A stretch of DNA of 35,106 bases from Verrucomicrobiota bacterium (GTDB lineage Bacteria; Verrucomicrobiota; Verrucomicrobiia; Opitutales; Opitutaceae): positions 1-35,106 of the forward strand of contig JACRKC010000031.1 in the NCBI GenBank assembly GCA_016235555.1. The letters run 5' to 3'. The notes under the pieces are model-generated. The model had not been told where the DNA came from. It saw only the letters and a program-made list of their open reading frames with translations, and did no database searches. How positions within the stretch are numbered: the stretch's first letter is position 1; each line of letters opens with the position of its first letter. The position numbers and the translations under genes were made by a program. Positions 3,669 to 28,548 of this stretch are shown in pieces.

Positions 3669-6600
3669 ATGCAAACCCTGAACCGCTTCTTCTCCACGGC
3701 GCTTGCCGCACTCGTTTTCTTCGCCACTCCGCTCTCGGCCCAGCCGGCGACCGCCACGATCGAGGGCCGCGTTTCGAATGCCACCACCGGCTCCGCCCTC
3801 GGCCGCGCCCGCGTCGCCCTCGTCGGCACCGATCGGGAGACCTACACCGAGAGCGACGGCACCTTCCGCCTCGGCGGTGTGCCCGCGGGCGAGGCGCGCC
3901 TCAACGTGTCCTACATCGGTTTCGATCGGCAGACCGTCGTGGTCGGCGTCGCCGCCGGCGCCACGATTCAGCGCGACGTCGAGCTCGCGCTCGCCGGCAC
4001 ACGCAGCGCGGCCGCCGTCGGCGAGACGGTGAAACTTTCCGAGTTCACCGTCGTCGCCGACCGCGAGATGACCGCCCAGGCGCTCGCGATGAACGAGCAG
4101 CGCTACGCCGCCAACATCAAGAACGTCGTCGCCATCGACGAATACGGCGACCGCGGCGACGAGAACATCGGCGAGTTTCTGCGCTTCCTGCCCGGCGTCG
4201 CGCTCAACGACTCCGGCCAGGTGCCCAACGAGGTCACGCTCCGCGGTTTTCCCGCCCAGACTTCCGGCATCACCATCGACGGCGGCGACGTGATGGGATC
4301 GCGCGGCGGCGACACCCGCGCGCTCTCGCTGCTCGAGGTCCCGGTGAGCAACGTCTCCCGCGTCGAGGTCACCAAGGTCCCCACACCCGACATGCCCGCG
4401 AGCGGCCTCGGCGGTTCGTTGAACATCATCAGCAAGGCCGGCTTCGACACCAGGCGGCCGGAGTTCTCCTACCAACTCTACCAGATCTTCCACAGCCGCA
4501 GCGGACTCACGCTCGACGGCGGCCCGCGCAATCATGTCGGCGCGCTCAGCCCCAAATGGGTCGAGCCTTCGTTCGGCCTCAGCTACCTGCTCCCGGTGAA
4601 CAAGCAGCTCGCGCGCAGCGCCGGCGCCTCGCGCACGTGGCGGCAGAAACCGATGGAGCGCGGCAAAGATTCCGACGAGACCGCGACGTGGAACCTCGTC
4701 GACGGCTTCCAGCGCCAGAGCGACTGGCAGAGCCTCGCGCAGATTCTGAAGACGTGGTCCGCCAACCTCGGCGCCGACTGGCGCCTCACGCCGCGCGACA
4801 CGCTCTCGGCCAGCTTCCAATACCGCGAATCAGACAGCTACATCACCCGCAGCATCTTCTCCGCCATCTACGGCGCAGGTGCCACCGGCAACGCCACCTT
4901 CACGCAGGGCGCGGCCACCGGCGTCGGCAGCGTTTCCCAGGGCGACGGCGCCAATCAGGACATCCTTACGCAGACGTCCACCGCTGGCCTGAAATTCCGC
5001 CATCGCGGCGAAAGCTGGAAGTTCGACGCCGCGCTCAACTGGTCACTGGCCGAATCGCAATGGCTCGACATCGCCAAGGGCCACTTCAACACCGCGCCCG
5101 CCAACATCACCGGCCTCGTCGTGCGCGGTGATGGCATTCCGTCGTCGAGCGGCATCATCCCCACCCGCTACTCCGCCACGCGCGCCGGTGCCGCCGTCAA
5201 CATCTTCGACGGCGCCAACTACTCGATCGCCAGCGGCAACTCCGTCCAGAACGACTACAACGCCGGGAAACTCGCCGGCCGCGCCGATCTCCAGCGCGAC
5301 TTCGCCTGGCGGGTGCCCATCTCACTCCGGACCGGCTTCGCCATCGATCGCACGGAGCGCGACAACCGCCGGTTCCTCAAGACGTGGAACTTCCGCCCCA
5401 ACGGCGCCACCGATGCTACCTCCCGACTCGCCGGCGGTTTCGATGTGTTTGACGACGCCTACAACCGCGACGCACCCACCCTCTACGGCCAACCCATGCG
5501 TTGGATCAGCCACACCAAGCTTTACCAGCTCCTGCTCGCACGCCCGCAGTTGTTCGTCCTCGACGAGCCGCTCGCCCACCAGAACCTCGTCACCAACTCG
5601 CGCCGTCTCATCGAGACCATTTCCGCCGCCTACCTCCGCGCCGACGTGCGCCTGCTCCACAACCGTCTCTGGCTCGTCGGCGGCGTGCGCTTCGAGAAGA
5701 CCAACGACGAAGGTTGGGGCCCGAAAAACGATCCCTCCGCGCAATATCAGAAGGACGCCCAAGGCCGGGTCATCGACGGCAACGTCACGCAAGCCGGCGT
5801 GCAGCCCATCTTCCTCTCCAACGATCTTCTCGTGCGCGCCCGCCAGCGCTACGTCGAGCGCGGCACGCATGCCGAGCAGCACTACTCCGGCTACTACCCC
5901 AGTCTCAACGCCTCGTTCTCACTCACGGAGAAACTCGTCGTGCGCGGAGCCTACGCCCGCACCCTCGGCCGGCCCAACGTCAGCTCCGTCGTGCCGAGCG
6001 CCACATTCACCGAACCCACTGTCGCCGCGCCACCATCACCGTGACGAATCCCGGCCTCAAGCCGTGGACCGCCGACAGCTACGACTTCACGCTCGAGTCG
6101 TATCACCTCAAGGATGGTTTCGGCTCGTTCGGCGTGTTCCAGAAGAACATCAAGAATTTCTTCGGTTCCGTGCGCAGCGCTGCTTCGCCCTCGCTGCTGG
6201 AACTCTACGGCCTGCCCAACGACCCCGCCTACCTCAACTACGAAATCGCCACGACCACCAACACCGGCGACGCCAAGATCACCGGCGTCGAATACAGCTA
6301 CCGTCAGTCGCTCACGTTCCTCCCGCGGTGGGCGCGCGGCTTCCAGGTGTTTTTCAACGGCACCAAGATGACGCTCAGCGGCAGCACCACCGCCGACTTC
6401 ACGGGTTTCAATCCGAGCAGCTACGCCGGCGGCATCAACTTCATCCGCCCGCGCTACTTCATCAAACTCACCTGCACGTATCAGGGTGAGACGCAACGCG
6501 GCGCCGTCGCCGCCAACGTGGCCAACGGCATCCCCGCCGGCACCTACAACTACCAGGATGCCCGCCGCCGCTGGGGCCTCAGCGCCCAATACAGCCTGAG

Positions 6601-6757
6601 CAAACGCTTCGCTCTTTACGGCTCGATGACCGACCTCAACGGCGGCTTCAACCCGACCACGCTCCGCTACGCGCCCTCGACCCCCGCCTACGCCAAACCG
6701 CAGCGCTACCAGGAACTCGGCTCCACCATCACGCTCGGCGTGAAGGGGCAGTTCTGA
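3669..6757 (+). pseudogene. TonB-dependent outer-membrane receptor interrupted by a one-base frameshift
   Basis: Translation starts at ATG 3669 with a signal peptide ending at LSAQ, then a carboxypeptidase-regulatory-like domain (about residues 25-110), a plug domain (ENIGEFLRFLPGVALNDSG, RGFPAQTSGITIDGG) and a long beta-barrel. Frame 1 runs into TGA 6042-6044 just after a conserved TLGRPN segment. The family sequence resumes at once in the next frame (TITVTNPGLKPWTADSYDFTLE) and runs to TGA 6755-6757, ending in the C-terminal Phe typical of barrel proteins. The shift lies near 6025-6035 and is explained by loss of one base in a GC run. Repaired, the protein would be about 1030 residues and would take up a glycan or siderophore-like ligand using TonB-ExbBD energy. 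It is either a recent pseudogene or a sequencing error; the rest of the barrel is undamaged. Confidence 0.85.
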
Positions 6758-6953: not shown

Positions 6954-9767
6954 ATGCTCCGCGCGATGACCCGCGCTTTGCCCGCCACCCTCACCCTCAC
7001 TTGCGACGTCGCCATTTTGGGGGCCGGCGTCGGCGGCCTCGCCGCCGCGCTCGCCCTCGCCCGCGCCGGGCGCCGCGTCATTCTCACTGAGGAGTTTTCG
7101 TGGATCGGCGGCCAGCTCACGTCGCAGGCCATCCCACCCGACGAGCACGGCTGGATCGAACGTTTCGGTTGCACCGCTACGTATCGTGCCTTTCGCGAGG
7201 GTGTGCGGGCCTACTACCGCGCGCACTATCCGTTGCTGCCCGCCATCGCGGCCAACCCGCGCCTCAACCCCGGCAACGGCTGGGTTTCTCCCCTCTGTCA
7301 CGAGCCGCGCGTCGCCCTGGCCGTGCTCGAGGCGATGCTCGCGCCCCACGTCTCCTCCGGCCGCATCCTGATTCTGCGCCGTCATCGTCCGCGCGCCGTC
7401 GCGCTCGCTGGCGCCGACACCCTCGCCGCCGTCACCGTCGAATGCCTCGACACCGGCGTCGCCACCACGATCCGCGCAAGCTACTTTCTCGACGCCACGG
7501 AGAATGGCGACGTGCTCCCGCTCGCCAGCGTCGAGCACGTGACCGGGTCCGAATCACGCGCCCAGACCGGCGAACCCTCCGCGCCCGCCACCGCGCGCCC
7601 GTCAAACGTCCAGGCCTTCTCCGTTTGTTTCGTCCTCGAAGAACTCGCCGGCGAGGACCACACGATCCCGCGCCCCGGGCGCTACGATTTCTGGCGCAGC
7701 TATGTCCCGCGCCTCACGCCGCCGTGGCCCGGCCCGCTCCTCGGCTGGGCCGGCCTCAACCCGCGCACGATGGAAACGATGCGCTACAACTTCAACCCGC
7801 ACCGCGAGAAGCCCGGCCTGTTCTCCGGCCTGTGGGCCTTCCGCCGCATCATCGACCGCGCGCAGTTCGCCCCCGGCGCCTACCGCAGCGACGTGTGCCT
7901 CGTGAACTGGCCGATGATCGACTACATGGAGGGCGACTTGCTCACGTGCTCCGACGCCGAGCGCACCGCCCGCCTCGCCGACGCCAAGCAACTCAGCCTC
8001 TCGATGGTCCATTGGTTGCAGACCGAGGCGCCGCGCCCCGACGTCGGCACCGGCTGGCCCGGCCTCCGCCTCCGCGCCGATCTCCTCGGCACCGCCGACG
8101 GACTCGCGATGGCGCCCTACATCCGCGAGTCGCGCCGCATCCTTGCGCGCACCACGATCCGCGAGCAGGACGTGTCGGCGAAATTCCGCCCCGGCGATAC
8201 CCTCGCCGAGCGCTACGAGGACTCCGTCGGCATCGGTTACTACCGCATCGATCTCCATCCCTCGACGGGCGGCGACAACTACATCGACGTGCCGTCGCTG
8301 CCGTTCCGCATCCCGCTCGGCGCGCTCATCCCGCAGCGCGTCACGAATCTCCTCCCCGCCGCGAAAAATCTCGGCACCACGCACCTCACCAACGGCTGTT
8401 ACCGCCTCCATCCCGTCGAGTGGAACATCGGCGAAGCCGCCGGCGCGCTCGCCGCCTTCTGCCTCGCGGAAGGCACCACGCCCGCCGCCGTCCACGCCGC
8501 CGCGGATCGGCGCGCCGCGTTTCAACGCGAGCTCGTCGCGCGTGGCGTCGAACTCGCCTGGCCCGAAAACCTCAACCTCGACGACGGCGACCCCCACGCG
8601 CACGCTCGCTGTACGCCCCCTCTCCCGCCCTACCGACAGTGTAACCTATTGGGTTACACTCCGCATTCCGCAATGCCGCCTTCTCCCGCCAGCTACCAAT
8701 CGCTCGCCGCCCAAGTCGCCGCGCGTATCGCCGACGAGATCCGCGCGGGCACCTGGCAGGAATGGCTGCCCGGCGAGCGCGCGCTCACCGACTCGTTGCA
8801 GGTGAGCCGCAAGACCCTCCGCAAGGCCCTCGCCCAACTCCAGCGCGACGGCACGCTCGTCACCACGCACGGCCTCGGCCACCGCATCACCCTCGCCGCG
8901 CCGTCCTCCGCCCGCCGCGCGGATGCGACCATCGGCCTGCTCACCCCCGAATCGCTCGAAAACCTCCGCCCCTACACCGCACTCTGGGTTGACGAATTGC
9001 GCGCACTGCTGATCGAGCACGGCGCGCGCCTCAACACTTTCGCCGGCCACCGATACTTCAACACCCGCCCCGACAAGGCCCTCGCCCGCCTCGTCCAGCA
9101 GAACCCGCAGACCGGCTGGGTGCTCGCCCACACCAACGAGCAGATTCAGCAGTGGTTCTGCGATCATCGCGTGCCATGCGTGATCGCCGGCTCCTGCCAC
9201 CACGGGTTCGATCTGCCCAACGTCGACTGGGACAACTTCGCCATCTGCCGCCACGCCGCTGGCGCGATGTTGCGCCTCGGCCACCGTCGGGTCGCGTTTC
9301 TCACGAGGCAATCACAGCGCGCCGGCGATCTCGAGAGCGAGGCGGGGTTTATTGACGGCGTGCGCCGCTCACGCGCCGGCGCCGAACCCGTCATCCTGCG
9401 CCACGACGGCACCGCCGGGGGCGTCAATCGCGTGCTCACCCGGCTCTTCAGCTCCGCGTCCGCGCCGACGGCGCTCCTCATCGCCAACACCGTCTACTAC
9501 CTCAGTGCGATCACGTTTCTCGCACAGCGCGGTCTGCGCGTGCCACGGGACGTCTCACTCGTCTCGCGCAACGACGACACGTTCCTCAATTACGTCACAC
9601 CCGCCCCGACGCGTTACACCGGCAACGCGAAAACCTACGCCAAACGTCTCCTCCAGCCGATCCAGTCCATCCTGCGCGGCGAGCCCGCCACGCCTCCCGT
9701 GCAGCGCATCGAACCGACCTTCCTCCCCGGCGCCTCGCTCACCGCGCCTTTGTCATCCATTAGATGA
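6954..9767 (+). CDS. FAD-dependent oxidoreductase fused in frame to a GntR/LacI-type regulator
   Basis: A 937-residue open frame with no stop between two normally separate proteins. Residues about 5-555 are a FAD_oxidored-family enzyme (PF12831 type): a Rossmann FAD-binding motif GAGVGGLAAALALARAG, the WIGGQLTSQ segment after it, and a C-terminal FAD-closing region (NLLPAAKNLGTTHLTNGCYRLHP). Its probable start is ATG 6954 or ATG 6966 four codons later. Residues 574-937 are a complete transcription regulator beginning at an internal ATG (8673). The linker (about residues 556-573) is Pro-rich and partly encoded by a DNA dyad that looks like an operator, so it resembles former intergenic sequence whose stop was lost. 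It could be a true fusion, or two genes in which the regulator is also made from its own start. The substrate is unknown; the context suggests a sugar or sugar-acid oxidation step. Confidence 0.75.
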   Translation: MLRAMTRALPATLTLTCDVAILGAGVGGLAAALALARAGRRVILTEEFSWIGGQLTSQAIPPDEHGWIERFGCTATYRAFREGVRAYYRAHYPLLPAIAANPRLNPGNGWVSPLCHEPRVALAVLEAMLAPHVSSGRILILRRHRPRAVALAGADTLAAVTVECLDTGVATTIRASYFLDATENGDVLPLASVEHVTGSESRAQTGEPSAPATARPSNVQAFSVCFVLEELAGEDHTIPRPGRYDFWRSYVPRLTPPWPGPLLGWAGLNPRTMETMRYNFNPHREKPGLFSGLWAFRRIIDRAQFAPGAYRSDVCLVNWPMIDYMEGDLLTCSDAERTARLADAKQLSLSMVHWLQTEAPRPDVGTGWPGLRLRADLLGTADGLAMAPYIRESRRILARTTIREQDVSAKFRPGDTLAERYEDSVGIGYYRIDLHPSTGGDNYIDVPSLPFRIPLGALIPQRVTNLLPAAKNLGTTHLTNGCYRLHPVEWNIGEAAGALAAFCLAEGTTPAAVHAAADRRAAFQRELVARGVELAWPENLNLDDGDPHAHARCTPPLPPYRQCNLLGYTPHSAMPPSPASYQSLAAQVAARIADEIRAGTWQEWLPGERALTDSLQVSRKTLRKALAQLQRDGTLVTTHGLGHRITLAAPSSARRADATIGLLTPESLENLRPYTALWVDELRALLIEHGARLNTFAGHRYFNTRPDKALARLVQQNPQTGWVLAHTNEQIQQWFCDHRVPCVIAGSCHHGFDLPNVDWDNFAICRHAAGAMLRLGHRRVAFLTRQSQRAGDLESEAGFIDGVRRSRAGAEPVILRHDGTAGGVNRVLTRLFSSASAPTALLIANTVYYLSAITFLAQRGLRVPRDVSLVSRNDDTFLNYVTPAPTRYTGNAKTYAKRLLQPIQSILRGEPATPPVQRIEPTFLPGASLTAPLSSIR
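8638..8660. promoter_or_regulatory. Operator-like dyad O1 upstream of the regulator start
   Basis: Arms 8638-8648 (AGTGTAACCTA) and 8650-8660 (TGGGTTACACT) match at 10 of 11 positions around a single central base. It ends 12 bases before the regulator ATG, a position fitting autoregulation. It shares the core TGTMAYCYATTRGRTKACA with dyads at 9750, 9806 and 21328, and its changes are compensated on both arms. Confidence 0.6.
8673..9767 (+). CDS. GntR-HTH regulator with LacI-type sensor domain (internal start of the fused frame)
   Basis: From ATG 8673 this is a 364-residue regulator, the usual length for AraR-like proteins. Residues about 8-75 are a winged helix of the GntR family (LPGERALTDSLQVSRKTLRKAL, then a DGTLVTTHGLGHRI wing). 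Residues about 88-355 are a periplasmic-binding-protein-like sensor domain as in LacI/GalR (the segments ATIGLLTPESLEN, GHRRVAFLTRQ and RGLRVPRDVSLVSRNDD). Such proteins bind DNA dyads and release them on sugar binding. A dyad lies just upstream of the start, and another overlaps the stop codon. It is listed separately because it may be translated independently of the upstream oxidoreductase, with which it shares an uninterrupted frame. It is the likely local controller of the sugar genes. Confidence 0.75.
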   Translation: MPPSPASYQSLAAQVAARIADEIRAGTWQEWLPGERALTDSLQVSRKTLRKALAQLQRDGTLVTTHGLGHRITLAAPSSARRADATIGLLTPESLENLRPYTALWVDELRALLIEHGARLNTFAGHRYFNTRPDKALARLVQQNPQTGWVLAHTNEQIQQWFCDHRVPCVIAGSCHHGFDLPNVDWDNFAICRHAAGAMLRLGHRRVAFLTRQSQRAGDLESEAGFIDGVRRSRAGAEPVILRHDGTAGGVNRVLTRLFSSASAPTALLIANTVYYLSAITFLAQRGLRVPRDVSLVSRNDDTFLNYVTPAPTRYTGNAKTYAKRLLQPIQSILRGEPATPPVQRIEPTFLPGASLTAPLSSIR

Positions 9768-13140: not shown

Positions 13141-16100
13141 CTAGCCATCCATAGTGCCTGCAACAGACGCCGCCCGCCACCGCTTCAGGGCCTGGCCGGT
13201 AAGGGAGCGCCATTCCTCTTCGATCTCCACGCGGGGGCCCGCGAAAATCAGTTCGCCGCCCTCGCGTCCACCGCCCGGCCCGAGGTCGATCAGCCAGTCG
13301 GCCAGGTTGATCACGTCGAGATTGTGCTCGATGATGATCACGGTGTTGCCGGCATCGCGCAGTTTGAACAGCAGGTCCATCAGTTTCTGGATGTCGGTCC
13401 AGTGGAGGCCCGTCGTCGGCTCGTCGAGAATGTAGAGCGTCGACCCCTGCTGCCGCTTGCTGAGCTCGAGCGATAATTTCAGGCGCTGCGCTTCGCCGCC
13501 CGACAACGTCGTGGCCGATTGCCCCAGCGTCAGGTAGCCGAGCCCCACCGCCTCCAACGTCGCGAGCTTGTCCAGCACGCGCGGGATGTGGCGGAAAAGC
13601 CCGATCGCCTCGCGCACCGTCATCTCCAGCACATCCGCGATCGACTTGCCGTGAAACAGGATTTCCAGCGTCTCGCGATTGAACCGCCGCCCCGCGCAAC
13701 TCGGACACGGCGCATACGCGTCCGCCATGAACTGCATGTCCAGCTTGATCGCCCCGTCGCCCTGGCAGCGCTCGCACCGACCGCCGCGCACGTTGAATGA
13801 AAACCGGCTCGCCTTGTAGCCGCGCACCTTCGCCAACGGCACCTGCGCATAGAGATCGCGCAGCAGCGTGAGCAGGTCGACATAGGTCGCGGGGTTGGAG
13901 CGCGGACTCCGCCCGATCGGCTCTTGGTCCACCTGCACCAGCTTCTCGAAGAAATCGAGGTTCTCCACGTGGCGGTGCCGGCCCGGGACAGCCTTGGCGC
14001 CGTTGAGCTTCCGGGCCGCGGCGACGGCGAGGATGTCGTTCACCAACGTGCTCTTCCCCGAGCCGCTGACTCCCGTGACACAGCTGAGCAGACCAACCGG
14101 AAACTTCACATCGATGCCCCGCAGGTTGTTCGCCCGCGCCTCGCGCACCGTCAGCCACGCGCCGTCGGGCTCCTTCCGCTTGGCATCGCGCACCACGCTG
14201 AGCTTGCGCGCGAGGTAGGCCCCCGTCCGCGAATGCTTCGGCGGCAGCTCCATGCAGGCCGCGGGCGTCCCTTGGAACAACAACTGCCCGCCCTCCACGC
14301 CCGCCTCCGGCCCGAGTTCGACCAGCTCATCCGCCAGTCGCAACGTGTCCTCGTCGTGCTCGACGACGATCACCGTGTTACCCCGGTCGCGCAACGCGAC
14401 CAGCGTGTCCAGCAGCTTCTGGTTGTCGTGCGGATGCAGGCCGATGCTCGGTTCGTCGAGCACGTAGATCACGCCCACGAGGCCCATGCCGAGTTGCGTG
14501 GCGAGGCGCACGCGCTGCGCTTCCCCGCCGGAGAGCGTCGCGTAGTCCCGGTCGAGCGTCAGATAGCCCAGCCCCGTCTCCAGCAGAAAGTGCAGGCGCT
14601 GCTCGATGCCGTTGACCACGTCGCGCGCCGCCTCGTTCGTGGCGTGCGCCGCCACGATCTCACGCGCCACCGCGTGGGCCTGGCCGATGTCGAGCGACAT
14701 GAATTCTGGAAAGGTGAGGTCGGGCCAGTCTTTGACTGGCCCATTCGTCAGCGAAGCAATGTTCGCGGGCCGGTCGGAGACCGGCCCTACTTTGACCGCG
14801 CCGCTCCGCGCGTTCAAACGCGTGCCGTGACACTCCGGGCACTCGCCGCTCACCATGAACGTCGTCAACCGCGCCCGGAATCCGTCGCTATCGGTGTAAC
14901 GAAAACTCTCCTCGAGATCGGCCACGACGCCGGCAAACGGCATCGCCTTCGCCTCGCGCATCCGCCGCAGCTTGAAGGCAAACTGCCGCTCCCCCGCTCC
15001 GAACAAAATCGCGTGCCGCGTCTCCTCGGACAGCTCCTTCCACGGCACGTCGGGATCGAACGGCAGTTGCTCCGCGAGCTGCTTGAGCAGCGCGTTGTGT
15101 TTGATGATGAGATTTTTTCCGCCGATGCGCCACGGCTTCAGCGCCCCCTCGCGCACGCTTTTTTCCGGGTCGGGCACGAGGAAGTCCGGCACGAACCGCA
15201 ACTTCCGCCCCAGCCCGTCGCACGTCGGGCACGCACCCTCGCGGTGCGAAAACGAAAAGTGCCGCGCGCTCAGTTTCTCGAACACCTCGCCGCACCCCTC
15301 GCAGGCGAGCGACTGACTGAGCGACACTTCGCGCCACTCCCCGGTCGGTGGGGCTGGCTCTCCGAGCCGGCCTGGGCTGGCGGTTTCGGAACTGGAACTC
15401 AGGCCCGCTCGGAGAGCGGGTCCCACCTTCTGCGCCAGCACGACCGCCCGGTCCTTCCCCTCGCGAAACGCCAGCTCGAGCGAGTCCGCCAGCCGCGTCC
15501 GCTGGTCCGCCGTCGCCACCAACCGGTCCACGACCAGCTCCACCACGATCTCCCTCACGCCGGCGCCCGTCGGGATGAGCTTCGGCTCGTCGAGATTTTT
15601 CACCTCGCCGTCCAGCCGCACGCGCTGGAAGCCCCGCTGGCGCAGCCGCGGCAGCTCGTCGCGCAGCACGCTTGGCTTCGCCCGCATGAACGGCGCCAGC
15701 AGCATCACCCGCTCCCCCGCGCACTCGGTCAGCACGCGTTGCACATTGTCGTCGAGCGAGCGCTGCAGCACCCGTCCGCCATCCTTCGGGCAGCGCTGTT
15801 CGCCGACGAGCGCCCACAGCAGCTGCGCGTAGTCCGCGATCTCCGTCGCCGTCGCGATCGTCGACCGCGGCCCGCCCGCCCCGGTCCGCTGCTCGATGGC
15901 GAGCACCGGCGAGAGTCCGTGGATGAAGTCCACGTCCGGTCGCTTCAACTGGTCGAGCACCTGCCGGGCCTGCGCCGACAGGCTCTCCATGTATTTCCGG
16001 TAGCCCTCGGCGTAGATCGTGTCGAACGCCAGCGACGACTTGCCCGAGCCACTCGGCCCGGTGATCACCACCAGCTTCCCGCGCGGGAGCCGCACCTCGA

Positions 16101-16158
16101 GATTCTTCAAGTTGTGCTCGCGCGCGCCTTTGACGTGGATGTGGGTCGCAGCCTGCAT
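13141..16158 (-). CDS. uvrA: UvrA-type excinuclease ABC subunit A carrying two in-frame REPIN insertions
   Basis: A 1005-residue protein from ATG 16156-16158; the GTG five codons upstream is less likely. UvrA finds bulky DNA lesions with UvrB in nucleotide excision repair. Visible in order: Walker [10 protein letters not shown] (about 34-42), zinc module CEGCG...CPTC, ABC signature [15 protein letters not shown] with DEPSIGLH, second Walker [10 protein letters not shown] (about 696), the insertion-free zinc module CERCQGDG...CPSC, second signature [11 protein letters not shown] and DEPTTGLH. The protein is longer than the usual 940 or so residues. About 51 extra residues come from two repeats at 15347-15427 (residues about 245-271) and 14719-14790 (457-480), both in phase. 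The segment after the first Walker domain reads [18 protein letters not shown] rather than the usual STVGTVTEIYDYLRLLFA, so a paralogue of the housekeeping UvrA is possible. Confidence 0.92.
14719..14790. repeat. REPIN inside uvrA, GTAGGGCCGGTCTC family
   Basis: Arms 14719-14742 and 14767-14790 are inverted GTMGGGCC hairpins, 72 bases in all, exactly 24 codons. On the coding (minus) strand it starts on a codon boundary as GTA GGG CCG and encodes [20 protein letters not shown] and four more residues without a stop. A single copy of the same family follows rpmA at 32174. Confidence 0.8.
15347..15427. repeat. REPIN inside uvrA, GTGGG-CCGCTCTCC family
   Basis: Arms 15348-15372 and 15402-15426 are inverted copies matching at 21 of 25 positions. 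One pair of differences (C..G versus G..C) is a compensated change in the arm hairpin. Bounded by GG/CC it spans 81 bases. On the coding strand it begins GTG GGA CCC and encodes a Ser/Gly/Pro-rich stretch that replaces nothing essential. Confidence 0.75.
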
Positions 16159-16399
16159 GCGTGAAACTGGCACCTTACCGAAATGCCCGCCGCGTCAAAT
16201 CGCGAAACGCACGCCATTTCCATCCCTCCGACCACCCCGTTGCGCACTTCTTGTCCGTCTCATGCGCATCGCATATTCATTCTTGCGCCGTTTTTCCCGG
16301 CGCAGTTTCCTCTTCCCCGCCACAAAACCCCCTTGTGTCGCGCCATTCCACCCCTGCCAACCGACCTCCCGTTCGTGGGCGTCGCTGGATCCAAACCTC
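16159..16399. promoter_or_regulatory. Divergent promoter region between uvrA and the DUF1302 gene
   Basis: About 240 bases with no repeat element, unlike most gaps here. It should hold promoters for uvrA (leftward) and the envelope gene set (rightward). A weak TTGTCC...CATATT pair lies near 16249-16275, and a small hairpin (GCGCCG at 16285-16290 with CGGCGC at 16298-16303) follows it. No convincing SOS-box dyad was seen. The assignment rests mainly on gene layout. Confidence 0.4.
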
Positions 16400-21198: not shown

Positions 21199-21452
21199 GT
21201 GGAGCGCGTTGCCCCCAACACGCTTTCAGGATCTCCGCTCTCGCTCGCGCGTGCCGCGTTGCACGCGACTTCTCTGCAGCGTGGTAGCAGCCGAGGTAAC
21301 GAGGCTGGCCGCACCACGCCACGGGAAGTTTGTCACCTATTGGGTGACAAACCCTCGATCCGGCCTCCTCATGTCGGCCGCTACACTCGCTCGCAAGACT
21401 CAACCAGGATGTTTGCGCCCGCCCCGGCGCGTTGAGGGCAACGCGCACCACC
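21199..21452. repeat. Nested repeats upstream of the RND gene: outer GTGGAGCGCGTTG arms around an inner pair
   Basis: The outer forward arm 21199-21224 and outer reverse arm 21426-21452 enclose an inner inverted pair of the GTAGCRGCCGAGGT family (21284-21308 and 21361-21384). The inner loop holds the operator-like dyad at 21328-21352. This 291-base gap between the YCF48 and RND genes otherwise shows no gene. Confidence 0.65.
21328..21352. promoter_or_regulatory. Operator-like dyad O4 upstream of the RND transporter
   Basis: Arms GTTTGTCACCTA (21328-21339) and TGGGTGACAAAC (21341-21352) match at 11 of 12 positions around one base. The core is the same as in the three dyads beside the GntR/LacI-type regulator about 12 kb away. 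It lies 115 bases before the transporter ATG, inside the loop of a repeat pair. Confidence 0.5.
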
Positions 21453-26536: not shown

Positions 26537-27346
26537 ATGCGTTCCCTCCTGCCGTTCCTGTTTCTCGCCCTGCTGCCTCCGGCGGCGGCGGCCCGCCCGG
26601 CGTTGAAAGACGGCGAGGTCCTCACCTTCAAAGTCTCGTGGGCCGGTCTCGGCGCCGGCGAAATCAAGATCAGCGCCAACGCCGAACCCGAGATCACCCC
26701 GCCCCGCCTCCGCGTCACCACCACCACTGCGACCAAGGGTCTCGCCCGCCTGCTGCTCGCCTTCGATGCGAAAGCCGAATCGCTGTTCGATGCCGATACC
26801 GGTCGCCTGAAATCCCTCACCGAGTGGAGCAAGCAGCGCAACAAAGTGAGCGAACACGCCGTGGCCTTCGACTACCAGGCCGCGCACGCCGTCTACACCC
26901 GCCCCGGCTCCTCCGACCAGCCGCGCCAGATCGCGATGCCCGCCGGCGATCCCCTCGACCTCATCACGCAACTCGTGCAAACCCGCGATTGGGATCTTCA
27001 GCCCGGCGAGAAACGCGACGCCCTCGTGCTCTTCAACGACGACTTCTACGAACTCACCATCCACGCCGCCCGCTATGAAGACGTGCGCACGCCGCTCGGC
27101 GAGTTCAAGACCCTCGTGCTTGAGCCGCGCATGGACAAGACTCCGCCCAAAGGCATGTTCAAAAAAGGCTCCACCGTGCGCGTGTGGATCGCCCGCGACG
27201 ACACCCGCCGGCTGCCCGTGAAATTTGAAGTGGAGTTCAAGATCGGCACCGGCGTCGCCACCCTTATCCAATACCAACCCCCGGCCCCGGCGCCCGCCAC
27301 CGCGGCGACTCAGACGCAACCGGATGCGAAAAATCCTCGTTCTTAG
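26537..27346 (+). CDS. DUF3108 family exported protein
   Basis: A 269-residue protein from ATG 26537, which opens a signal peptide (LLPFLFLALLPPAAAA); an in-frame start at 26474 is rejected because it would bury the signal. Landmarks are GEVLTFKVSWAGLGAGEIK near the N-terminus, a central beta-rich region (LFDADTGRLKSLTEWSKQRNK is not reproduced in full elsewhere), and KGSTVRVWIARDDTRRLPVKF near the end, typical of DUF3108 (PF11306). Members are predicted periplasmic beta-sandwich proteins of unknown role. Its last 23 bases overlap the glycosyltransferase gene, suggesting co-translation and a possible envelope connection. Confidence 0.82.
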   Translation: MRSLLPFLFLALLPPAAAARPALKDGEVLTFKVSWAGLGAGEIKISANAEPEITPPRLRVTTTTATKGLARLLLAFDAKAESLFDADTGRLKSLTEWSKQRNKVSEHAVAFDYQAAHAVYTRPGSSDQPRQIAMPAGDPLDLITQLVQTRDWDLQPGEKRDALVLFNDDFYELTIHAARYEDVRTPLGEFKTLVLEPRMDKTPPKGMFKKGSTVRVWIARDDTRRLPVKFEVEFKIGTGVATLIQYQPPAPAPATAATQTQPDAKNPRS

Positions 27347-28274
27347 AGGCGGCGCGCTCGGCGATTTCATCGTCACGCTCCCCGCGTTCGCGTTGCTCCG
27401 CCGTCACTGGCCCGCCGCCCGCCTCGAACTCGCCGGCAACGCCACCGCCGCCGCACTCGCCCTCGACGCCGGTCTGCTCGACGCCGCGCATTCCCAACAC
27501 GAATCGCGCTGGAGCGCGCTCTACGGCGCTGCGCCGCTGCCCGCCGGTCTCGCCGCGTGGCTCGCGACCTTCGATCTCGTCGTCAACTTCTGGCCCGACA
27601 CCGACGGCGAACTTCGCGCGCATTTCCCGCTGCGCCCCGACCAGACGTTCCTTCACGGCGAGGCGCAGCCGACCTACGCGCCGGCCGCCGCGCATTATTG
27701 CGCAGCGCTGCGCCCGTTGGGCCTGACGGGCGAGGAGCAATGGTATCGTTTTGCTGTAGGGCGGGGTCGCCGAACCCCGCCGTTTGGTTGGTGGGCCGGG
27801 GCACGGCGGTGTTCGGCGACCCCGCCCTACACCGTCGCCCTCCACCCCGGCAGCGGCTCCCCCCGCAAGAACTGGCCGCTCGATCGGTGGCTCGAGCTGG
27901 TGTCAAAACTCCCACAACCGATCCTTGTCATTCTCGGCGAAGCGGAGATCGAGCGGTGGAGCGCGTTGACCTCAACGCGCTTGGCTCGCGGCGTGACCGA
28001 ACAGCGCGTTGACAGCAACACGCTCCACCTTGCCGTCGATCTCCCGCTGCGCGACCTCGCCGTGCAGCTTTCCCGCTGCACACTTTTTCTCGGCCACGAC
28101 TCCGGTGTGAGCCACCTCGCCGCCGCCTGCGGTGTCCCGAGCGTGCTGCTCTTCGGTCCCACCGATCCCGCGATGTGGGCGCCGCCGGCGCCACACGTCA
28201 CCGTGATCAAGCGTGGCGAAACCCTCGATTCGATTTCAATCGCCGACGTGCAGCATGCTACAGCGGCGGTCTAA
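27324..28274 (+). CDS. Glycosyltransferase family 9 (heptosyltransferase-like) with two embedded REPINs
   Basis: A 316-residue cytoplasmic enzyme from ATG 27324. Family 9 landmarks are LRGGALGDFIVTLPAFALLRRH at the start, ALHPGSGSPRKNWPLDRW (nucleotide-sugar binding region) and LFLGHDSGVSHLAAACGVPS followed by VLLFGPTDPAMWAP near the end. These enzymes add heptose or another sugar to lipopolysaccharide core. Two repeats are translated as part of the protein: residues about 145-169 (VGRGRRTPPFGWWAGARRCS...), just before the ALHPGSGS motif, and 211-236, after the Rossmann strand ILVILGEAEI. Both keep the frame. Whether the enzyme is still active cannot be judged, but all conserved motifs survive. 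Confidence 0.85.
   Translation: MRKILVLRGGALGDFIVTLPAFALLRRHWPAARLELAGNATAAALALDAGLLDAAHSQHESRWSALYGAAPLPAGLAAWLATFDLVVNFWPDTDGELRAHFPLRPDQTFLHGEAQPTYAPAAAHYCAALRPLGLTGEEQWYRFAVGRGRRTPPFGWWAGARRCSATPPYTVALHPGSGSPRKNWPLDRWLELVSKLPQPILVILGEAEIERWSALTSTRLARGVTEQRVDSNTLHLAVDLPLRDLAVQLSRCTLFLGHDSGVSHLAAACGVPSVLLFGPTDPAMWAPPAPHVTVIKRGETLDSISIADVQHATAAV
27756..27830. repeat. REPIN inside the glycosyltransferase gene, GTAGGGCGGGGTCGCC family
   Basis: Arms 27756-27781 and 27805-27830 are inverted copies matching at 25 of 26 positions. It spans 75 bases, exactly 25 codons, from a GTA codon to a TAC codon. The family also occurs at 11646-11671. Confidence 0.85.
27955..28029. repeat. REPIN inside the glycosyltransferase gene, GTGGAGCGCGTTG family
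   Basis: Arms 27956-27981 and 28003-28028 are inverted copies matching at 22 of 26 positions; bounded by GG/CC the element is 75 bases. It is read through without a stop. Confidence 0.8.
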
Positions 28275-28310: not shown

Positions 28311-28370
28311 GTAGGAGCCTGCTTGCAGGCGATGGGCTACAAGCTGAATCGCCTGCAAGCAGGCTCCTAC
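28311..28370. repeat. REPIN, GTAGGAGCCTGCTTGCAGGC family
   Basis: Arms 28311-28333 and 28348-28370 are perfect 23-base inverted copies. A single copy is at 2070-2092. The gap 28275-28567 holds this and the next element and no gene. Confidence 0.85.
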
Positions 28371-28431: not shown

Positions 28432-28548
28432 GGTGGAGCGCGTTGCCCTCAACGCGCATTTTGTGGGAGGGGCTTTACGCCCAGACGAGTCGCGTGGTAA
28501 ACCCGCTCCCACATTCAAAACAGCGCGTTGGGGTCAACGCGCTCCACC
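28432..28548. repeat. REPIN nested inside a REPIN
   Basis: Outer arms 28432-28458 and 28523-28548 are of the GTGGAGCGCGTTG family. Between them lies an inner pair of a different family beginning GTGGGAGSGG (28463-28482 and 28498-28512). Confidence 0.75.

Follow-up and report, generated by a model that had tools for sequence, protein, structure and literature searches.

In-frame REPINs of apparently different age in a GT9 glycosyltransferase gene of an Opitutaceae bacterium

Introduction

Do bacterial palindromic repeats become useful parts of proteins? A single gene for a GT9 (heptosyltransferase-like) glycosyltransferase makes this question directly testable, as it appears to contrast a fresh insert that is predicted to be disordered with a probably older one that is found in two genera, with a decaying palindrome and a preserved frame. 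Such insertions also appear to be frequent in these bacteria.

The gene lies in a stretch of 35,106 nucleotides (the window), on contig C129 of an 8.03 Mb draft genome (G000) of the Opitutaceae. A preliminary description had placed two 75-base palindromes of two different families, both repeated elsewhere, inside the gene at 27756-27830 and 27955-28029. These coordinates are exact, and the two families, which we call H and B (all family letters were coined in this analysis), are both abundant in the genome. The features of the gene and its 3' side are:

27324..28274, + strand: GT9 (heptosyltransferase-like) gene, 316 aa, intact frame
27756..27830, + strand: REPIN1, family H, head GTAG, 75 nt, residues 145-169
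27955..28029, + strand: REPIN2, family B, head GGTGGAG, 75 nt, residues about 211-236
28311..28370, no strand assigned: REPIN of family C, just 3' of the GT9 gene
28432..28548, no strand assigned: pair of family B (the family of REPIN2) with repeat-like material between the arms, 3' of the GT9 gene

Results

Two inverted REP pairs in an intact gene

The gene product has both features of a GT9 member that we looked for, namely the GT9 domain (PF01075, E 1.4e-18) and likeness to solved GT9 structures, with 3tov (GT9) as the top Foldseek match of its model (TMq 0.71). There is no internal stop in the 27324-28274 ORF; the 316-residue frame runs open through both elements, neither of which creates a stop, as had been claimed. 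The protein is presumably made, folded as predicted and active.

Each element consists of two REPs of the same family, inverted with their heads outward, and forms one hairpin. The heads, beside the stem-loop, are GTAG in REPIN1 and GGTGGAG in REPIN2, GGAG being a known variant of the REP head. REPIN1 runs from a GTA codon (residue 145) to a TAC codon (residue 169), just as described; REPIN2 begins at the second base of codon 211 and ends at the first of codon 236. The earlier characterization of the arms as near-perfect is apt for REPIN1, in which they are 97% complementary over 29 nt and match at 26 of 27 positions in a fixed 27-nt comparison, and less so for REPIN2, with 23/27 in the same comparison. 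The RNA folds have energies of -65.4 kcal/mol for REPIN1 (z -7.9) and -46.0 kcal/mol for the window copy of REPIN2 (z -6.1), with 0/200 shuffles as stable in either case.

REP families and RAYT-like loci of the genome

REPs were counted in a sample of 835,106 bases (the window and 40 pieces of 20 kb each, together about 10% of the genome), using fifteen consensus strings from word counting, some of them interrelated, and allowing up to 5 mismatches. This gave 475 raw matches, against 6 in the reversed sequence, and a census of 407 non-overlapping REPs with 133 inverted pairs. The families of REPIN1 and REPIN2 have high copy numbers and are spread over the genome: matches in the own genome number at least 86 for REPIN1 (40 of 135 candidates scored) and at least 76 for REPIN2 (40 of 283), each palindromic place being counted per strand. 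Family H REPs also stand at or near the start of several draft contigs (for example C48:1-28, C43:42-71 and C57:36-65), which suggests that REPs break the draft assembly.

A transposase search of the own genome returned ten matches to Y1_Tnp and thirteen to one RAYT (itself included). The RAYT-like loci and the REP families that flank them are:

G000:C79 90-497: L202, family H on both sides, REP_Tyr_transpos 107.7 bits (cut-off 80)
G000:C79 9010-9465: L201, family B on both sides, 63.6 bits, below the cut-off of 80
Other loci by flanking family: L204 (D); L197 and L198 (E); L205 and L209 (F); L203 (N)

None of the listed REPs was found near L206, L207 or L208. Among six proteins compared with the NCBIfam RAYT model, L202 and L197 pass 80 bits, and L201, L203, L204 and L205 score 50-77. 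L202 and L201, the loci of families H and B, are about 9 kb apart on contig C79. The two elements of the GT9 gene show the REPIN features that were tested, and they may have been mobilised by the RAYTs that their families flank.

Homologues of the GT9 gene

The homologue set comprised the best 80 of 450 relatives, a set from which records very near the window genome may be missing; the nearest named homologue in it (L041, identical to L002) is the GT9 gene of G031, an Opitutus sp. MAG. A GT9 match of E 2.6e-56 or better, spanning at least residues 3-292, was found in 20 genomes besides the own one among 95 searched, and in these 95 there was no second genome of the window's genus. When 252 Opitutaceae genomes were searched, 72 (the own genome included) gave E <= 1e-70, with G031 as the best other genome (70%). 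A tree built from 71 of the 81 proteins, with ten distant or partial ones left out, places the window and G031 genes as sisters (support 0.937), and the order of the genes neighbouring GT9 is conserved with the L041 locus.

The elements occupy two variable places of the protein between conserved motifs, as had been stated, one before HPGSG (site 1) and one between KNW and GHDSG (site 2). Both segments had been expected to face gaps in homologues. This holds for REPIN1 insofar as no counterpart was seen at site 1 in the homologues; for REPIN2 it does not hold in the closest homologue, that of G031, which has a decayed REPIN of family B at site 2. No repeat-free homologue was found with the same residues, and the homologue that has nearly the same ones is the one with the decayed repeat. 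The best ungapped inverted repeat scores 26 in the window gene and 27 in L075, a homologue from a Lac Pavin MAG, followed by 13 in the next homologue; the median over the 88 distinct homologous genes, without that of the window, is 9. In a separate comparison by an ungapped inverted-repeat score, the G031 element is outside the top 15 homologues. Known REPIN carriers amount to 3 of the 89 GT9 genes examined, the window gene included.

A second REPIN in the linker region of REPIN1

Site 1 is a variable linker rather than a simple gap. In the 68 of 80 homologues that were measured, the stretch before HPGSG has a minimum of 29 residues and often has 30; the window gene has 48, and 4/68 homologues are longer. 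Without REPIN1 only 23 residues would be left, fewer than in any of the 68, so that about six or more residues would have been replaced besides the 25 added, or lost earlier. To judge from these lengths, a plain clean insertion would not account for REPIN1. Its residues 148-165 are predicted to be disordered (AlphaFold pLDDT < 50), and REPIN1 looks like the younger of the two inserts, with no genome found close enough to show its exact empty site.

L075 carries a perfect palindrome of its own in the same linker region, a little nearer the N-terminus:

L075 2429-2521: REPIN, 93 nt with 27-nt arms, in frame, GTAG head one base in

This palindrome has 23 matches in its own genome (both strands counted) and, judged by eye, does not belong to family H. 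With REPIN1 in the window gene and an unrelated REPIN in L075, the linker region has been hit at least two times.

A decaying counterpart of REPIN2 in a second genus

Site 2 measures 71 residues in the window gene. Among 75 other homologues (L118 was dropped as mis-anchored), 69 have 56-69 residues, and six, L041, L042, L049, L090, L095 and L104, are as long as the window's or longer. Taking away REPIN2 would leave about 46 residues, under the minimum of 56; as both sites thus fall below all measured homologues without their 25 codons, either the insertions also displaced residues or some had been lost before.

The G031 gene also has 71 residues at site 2, and these include a recognisable REPIN of the family of REPIN2 (64/75 nt identical, ungapped) at the same site and on the same strand, in the same phase and of the same length. 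Its arms have decayed to 18/27, against 23/27 in the window copy, its fold is near the level of shuffled sequences (z -1.6, 12/200 shuffles as stable), and the frame is open across it. The palindrome is eroding in G031 while the frame is kept. A further carrier was considered in G028, which has 71 residues at site 2 as well, and was rejected: its summed arm score is 33 where others reach 34 (a range that leaves out the window gene and L041), and its gene belongs to a different clade from those of the window and G031.

Across REPIN2 the GT9 model has a helix (206-216) and two strands (223-229 and 232-238), with pLDDT block means of 76-89, and a homologue lacking REPIN2 is predicted to have a short helix and one strand at the corresponding place. 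The residues of REPIN2 are predicted to be folded, in a model that draws on few sequences with the insert.

One inherited insertion or two

Aligned with gaps, the window and G031 copies of REPIN2 are identical at 66/76 positions (87%), and at 20/23 in the spacer, and the G031 copy has at most 78% identity to the 19 other own-genome copies compared. The window copy matches own-genome copies elsewhere at up to 67/79 positions, with 21/27 in the spacer (19 copies extracted from 20 of the best places); by BLAST, its identity is 83% to own-genome copies and 86% to the G031 copy. Because own-genome copies are nearly as similar, the spacers of family B must be partly conserved, and a shared spacer proves less. 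A spacer unique to the pair, with no more than 73% identity to any other copy in the genome sample, had at one point been proposed; own-genome copies that reached 85% weakened this argument and lowered our confidence in a single old insertion, in the overall reading and in the broader proposal discussed below. The two copies further share an A at one right-arm position, which, read on the opposite strand, occurs among the sampled REP heads in the C form 38 times and in the T form once (presumably the window copy).

Synonymous divergence between the window and G031 genes is lower in REPIN2 (dS 0.34) than in the rest of the gene (1.08), which a single old insertion does not predict. The difference is marginal (Fisher p 0.06; 2/179 windows as high), and we make no claim from dN and dS about selection on REPIN2. 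We consider one inherited insertion likelier than two, as the best reading of these data and not as proof. REPIN2 is probably the older insert and seems to have entered before the genus of the window and that of G031 split.

Other in-frame REP insertions

The uvrA gene of the window carries two further insertions, both in frame:

13141..16173, - strand: uvrA gene, ORF of 1010 aa, TIGR00630 1116 bits (cut-off 729.8)
14719..14790, - strand: uvrA REP dimer 1, head GTAG, 24 codons, two hairpins, -43.1 kcal/mol, z -5.9
15347..15426, - strand: uvrA REP dimer 2, head GTGG, -48.5 kcal/mol, z -6.4

The dimer at 15347-15426 falls in a stretch that is unaligned to the best solved UvrA chain (9gxk; query residues 240-280). 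An M20 hydrolase gene elsewhere in the genome (L183 13159-14502) has two in-frame REPINs of families H and B, as in GT9, and both inserts face gaps relative to the solved chain 3n5f. A protein kinase gene is a further clear in-frame case, as is that of a DUF3516 helicase, which has two inserts.

A rough codon model called 22 of 130 testable REP pairs in frame inside ORFs, as well as 16 of 119 testable single REPs, and it assigned coding-like flanks on both sides to 62 of the 130 pairs. It should be noted that this model is weak at telling sense from antisense in a GC-rich genome, that at least one of the 22 calls (window 21284-21384, in an ORF antisense to other genes) was judged spurious, and that the screen missed REPIN2 because of REPIN1 in its flank. 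Pfam searches of nine proteins (eight sampled ORFs and the window uvrA) assigned a family to eight, L188 having none; with GT9 included, the ORFs of 11 of the 22 pairs have a Pfam match (the Pfam run covered part of the ORFs). For the kinase L179, the second insert of L183 (M20) and both inserts of L190, the position is clearly inside a domain. Extrapolation from 11-22 of 130 pairs in about 10% of the genome suggests, very roughly, some 100 to 200 in-frame insertions genome-wide.

The lengths of the two GT9 elements had been noted to be multiples of three. Both are indeed 75 nt long; this is no special signature, as the core lengths of the 22 in-frame pairs leave remainders of 0, 1 and 2 in 8, 7 and 7 cases, and divisibility by three as a sign of selection was dropped for the same reason.

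Elsewhere in the window, a long ORF at 3669-6044 seems to be continued in another frame at 5501-6757, a possible frameshift in what we take to be perhaps a TonB-dependent receptor (3669-6757). At 6954-9767 there is a single ORF of 937 aa with no stop between its two parts, presumably an oxidoreductase followed by a GntR/LacI-like regulator.

Discussion

The interpretation we favour, with a probability of roughly 0.83, is that both segments are REPINs that entered the GT9 gene, likely moved by RAYTs, kept the frame and are most likely translated in a working enzyme. RAYT-type single-strand transposases encoded elsewhere in the genome most likely moved the REPINs into two tolerant landing sites, which would be the linker that joins the two Rossmann domains and, within the C-terminal domain, a variable stretch. 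Insertion would have kept the frame open while displacing some local codons, and both segments would then have been translated as part of the enzyme. REPIN2 would have entered once, before the two genera parted, and its palindrome would since have been eroding in G031 with the frame kept. The persistence of the inserts may reflect tolerance rather than benefit.

Several other explanations can be weighed against this one. A chance resemblance to a REP in what would be ordinary GT9 sequence at site 2 is hardly credible: a tryptophan after GEAE does occur at this site in several repeat-free homologues, and the G028 gene is equally long there with no clear similarity to REPs, but the family of the window copy is an abundant one, the G031 gene matches the left arm of the window REPIN2 at 26/28 positions against 19 for the best other among eight listed (76 genes scored), and the inverted-repeat score at site 2 is 15 against at most 11 in other homologues (L041 left out). 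A misjoining of assembly pieces at a REP would fit the family H REPs that several draft contigs have in their first 70 bases or so; it is nonetheless very improbable, given that both elements leave the frame and the domain order unbroken, that another assembly likewise has a REPIN at site 2 and that the gene order around GT9 is conserved. As to removal of the segments after transcription, or their skipping by the ribosome, the strength of the hairpins is all that speaks for it; a frame open through both elements needs no removal, nothing else suggests it, and we give this idea almost no weight.

A more substantial alternative is that the palindrome itself is functional in the gene, as an mRNA hairpin that tunes expression or as a protein-binding site, so that selection acts on the DNA or RNA form. 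The hairpins are very stable and REPIN2 has few synonymous changes between the two genera, as such a function would have it. However, the G031 copy is losing its palindrome, the inserts of the window gene and L075 are unlike in both sequence and position, and known carriers are so few among the GT9 genes examined that we regard a selected palindrome as quite improbable. Two independent entries of REPIN2 at one site, in the window genome and in G031, or a later exchange between the two genomes, are also unlikely, if a little less so. Family B REPs are present in both genomes, other copies in the own genome resemble the window copy nearly as much as that of G031 does, and synonymous divergence in REPIN2 is low, all of which would suit such a history; it would also have to produce the same site, strand, phase and length without gaps, a G031 copy with more identity to the window copy (87%) than to any of the 19 others compared, and a shared right-arm A that is rare among sampled heads.

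A broader proposal is that the REPINs of the Opitutaceae, driven by RAYTs, are a continuing source of protein sequence: translated palindromes would be gained at tolerant sites and would then erode while the peptide is kept and becomes folded, as appears to be the case for REPIN2 in GT9, and each genome would have some hundred affected genes or more. We put this forward tentatively, and it is rather more doubtful than the reading of the GT9 gene itself.

In-frame REPs are already known in this bacterial family. REPs wholly inside ORFs were described by Di Nocera et al. (2013; PMC3733652), with the highest number of in-frame GTAG REPs in Opitutus terrae, and these form a closer parallel to the GT9 elements than the Rickettsia repeats that the preliminary description had named. 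The available part of that paper reports GTAG or GTGG heads inside ORFs, as here, with most O. terrae GTAG-20 elements having the GTGG head. Dimers or groups that encode 20-30 residues make up more than half of the inserts, again as here, and some genes contain two inserts. An Opitutus genome, uvrA (both O. terrae uvrA genes carry double inserts) and RAYT genes flanked by the same repeat are further points in common. Its authors considered either a neutral location in linkers or loops or an altered function of repair genes. In contrast to the present case, the same part of the paper neither traces one insert across genera nor compares ages within a gene, and GT9 is not named in the portion of the main text available. 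A limited survey of the literature found no study that traces one in-frame REP insert across related Opitutaceae genera.

Other systems share some of these features. The Rickettsia palindromic elements (RPEs) are likewise read in frame in many protein genes, and a guanylate kinase that contains one has been reported to be made and active; as far as the accessible portions of these sources go, they differ in length (105-146 bp), and RPE-4 and RPE-6 are listed among the CGTC repeats, for which there is apparently no dedicated transposase (PMC2229807, PMC3733652); the families described here do have RAYT-like loci. The GT9 elements, with heads GTAG and GGTGGAG, do not have the CGTC head of the RPE-4/RPE-6 type. 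The REPINs of Pseudomonas fluorescens resemble them as inverted REP doublets associated with RAYTs, one group having a common spacing of 71 bp, and were, in the part of that study at hand, analysed in extragenic space, unlike the elements in GT9 (PMC3116915). The enterobacterial RU/ERIC elements found inside genes are also small mobile repeats read in frame, and are, in the available text, MITE-like, 103-168 bp long and not described as REP/RAYT (Delihas, 2007; PMC2759123). What the window adds to these precedents is a single gene with two inserts of apparently different age, an insert that is shared with another genus and decaying there, and a rough sample count which suggests many in-frame insertions in this genome.
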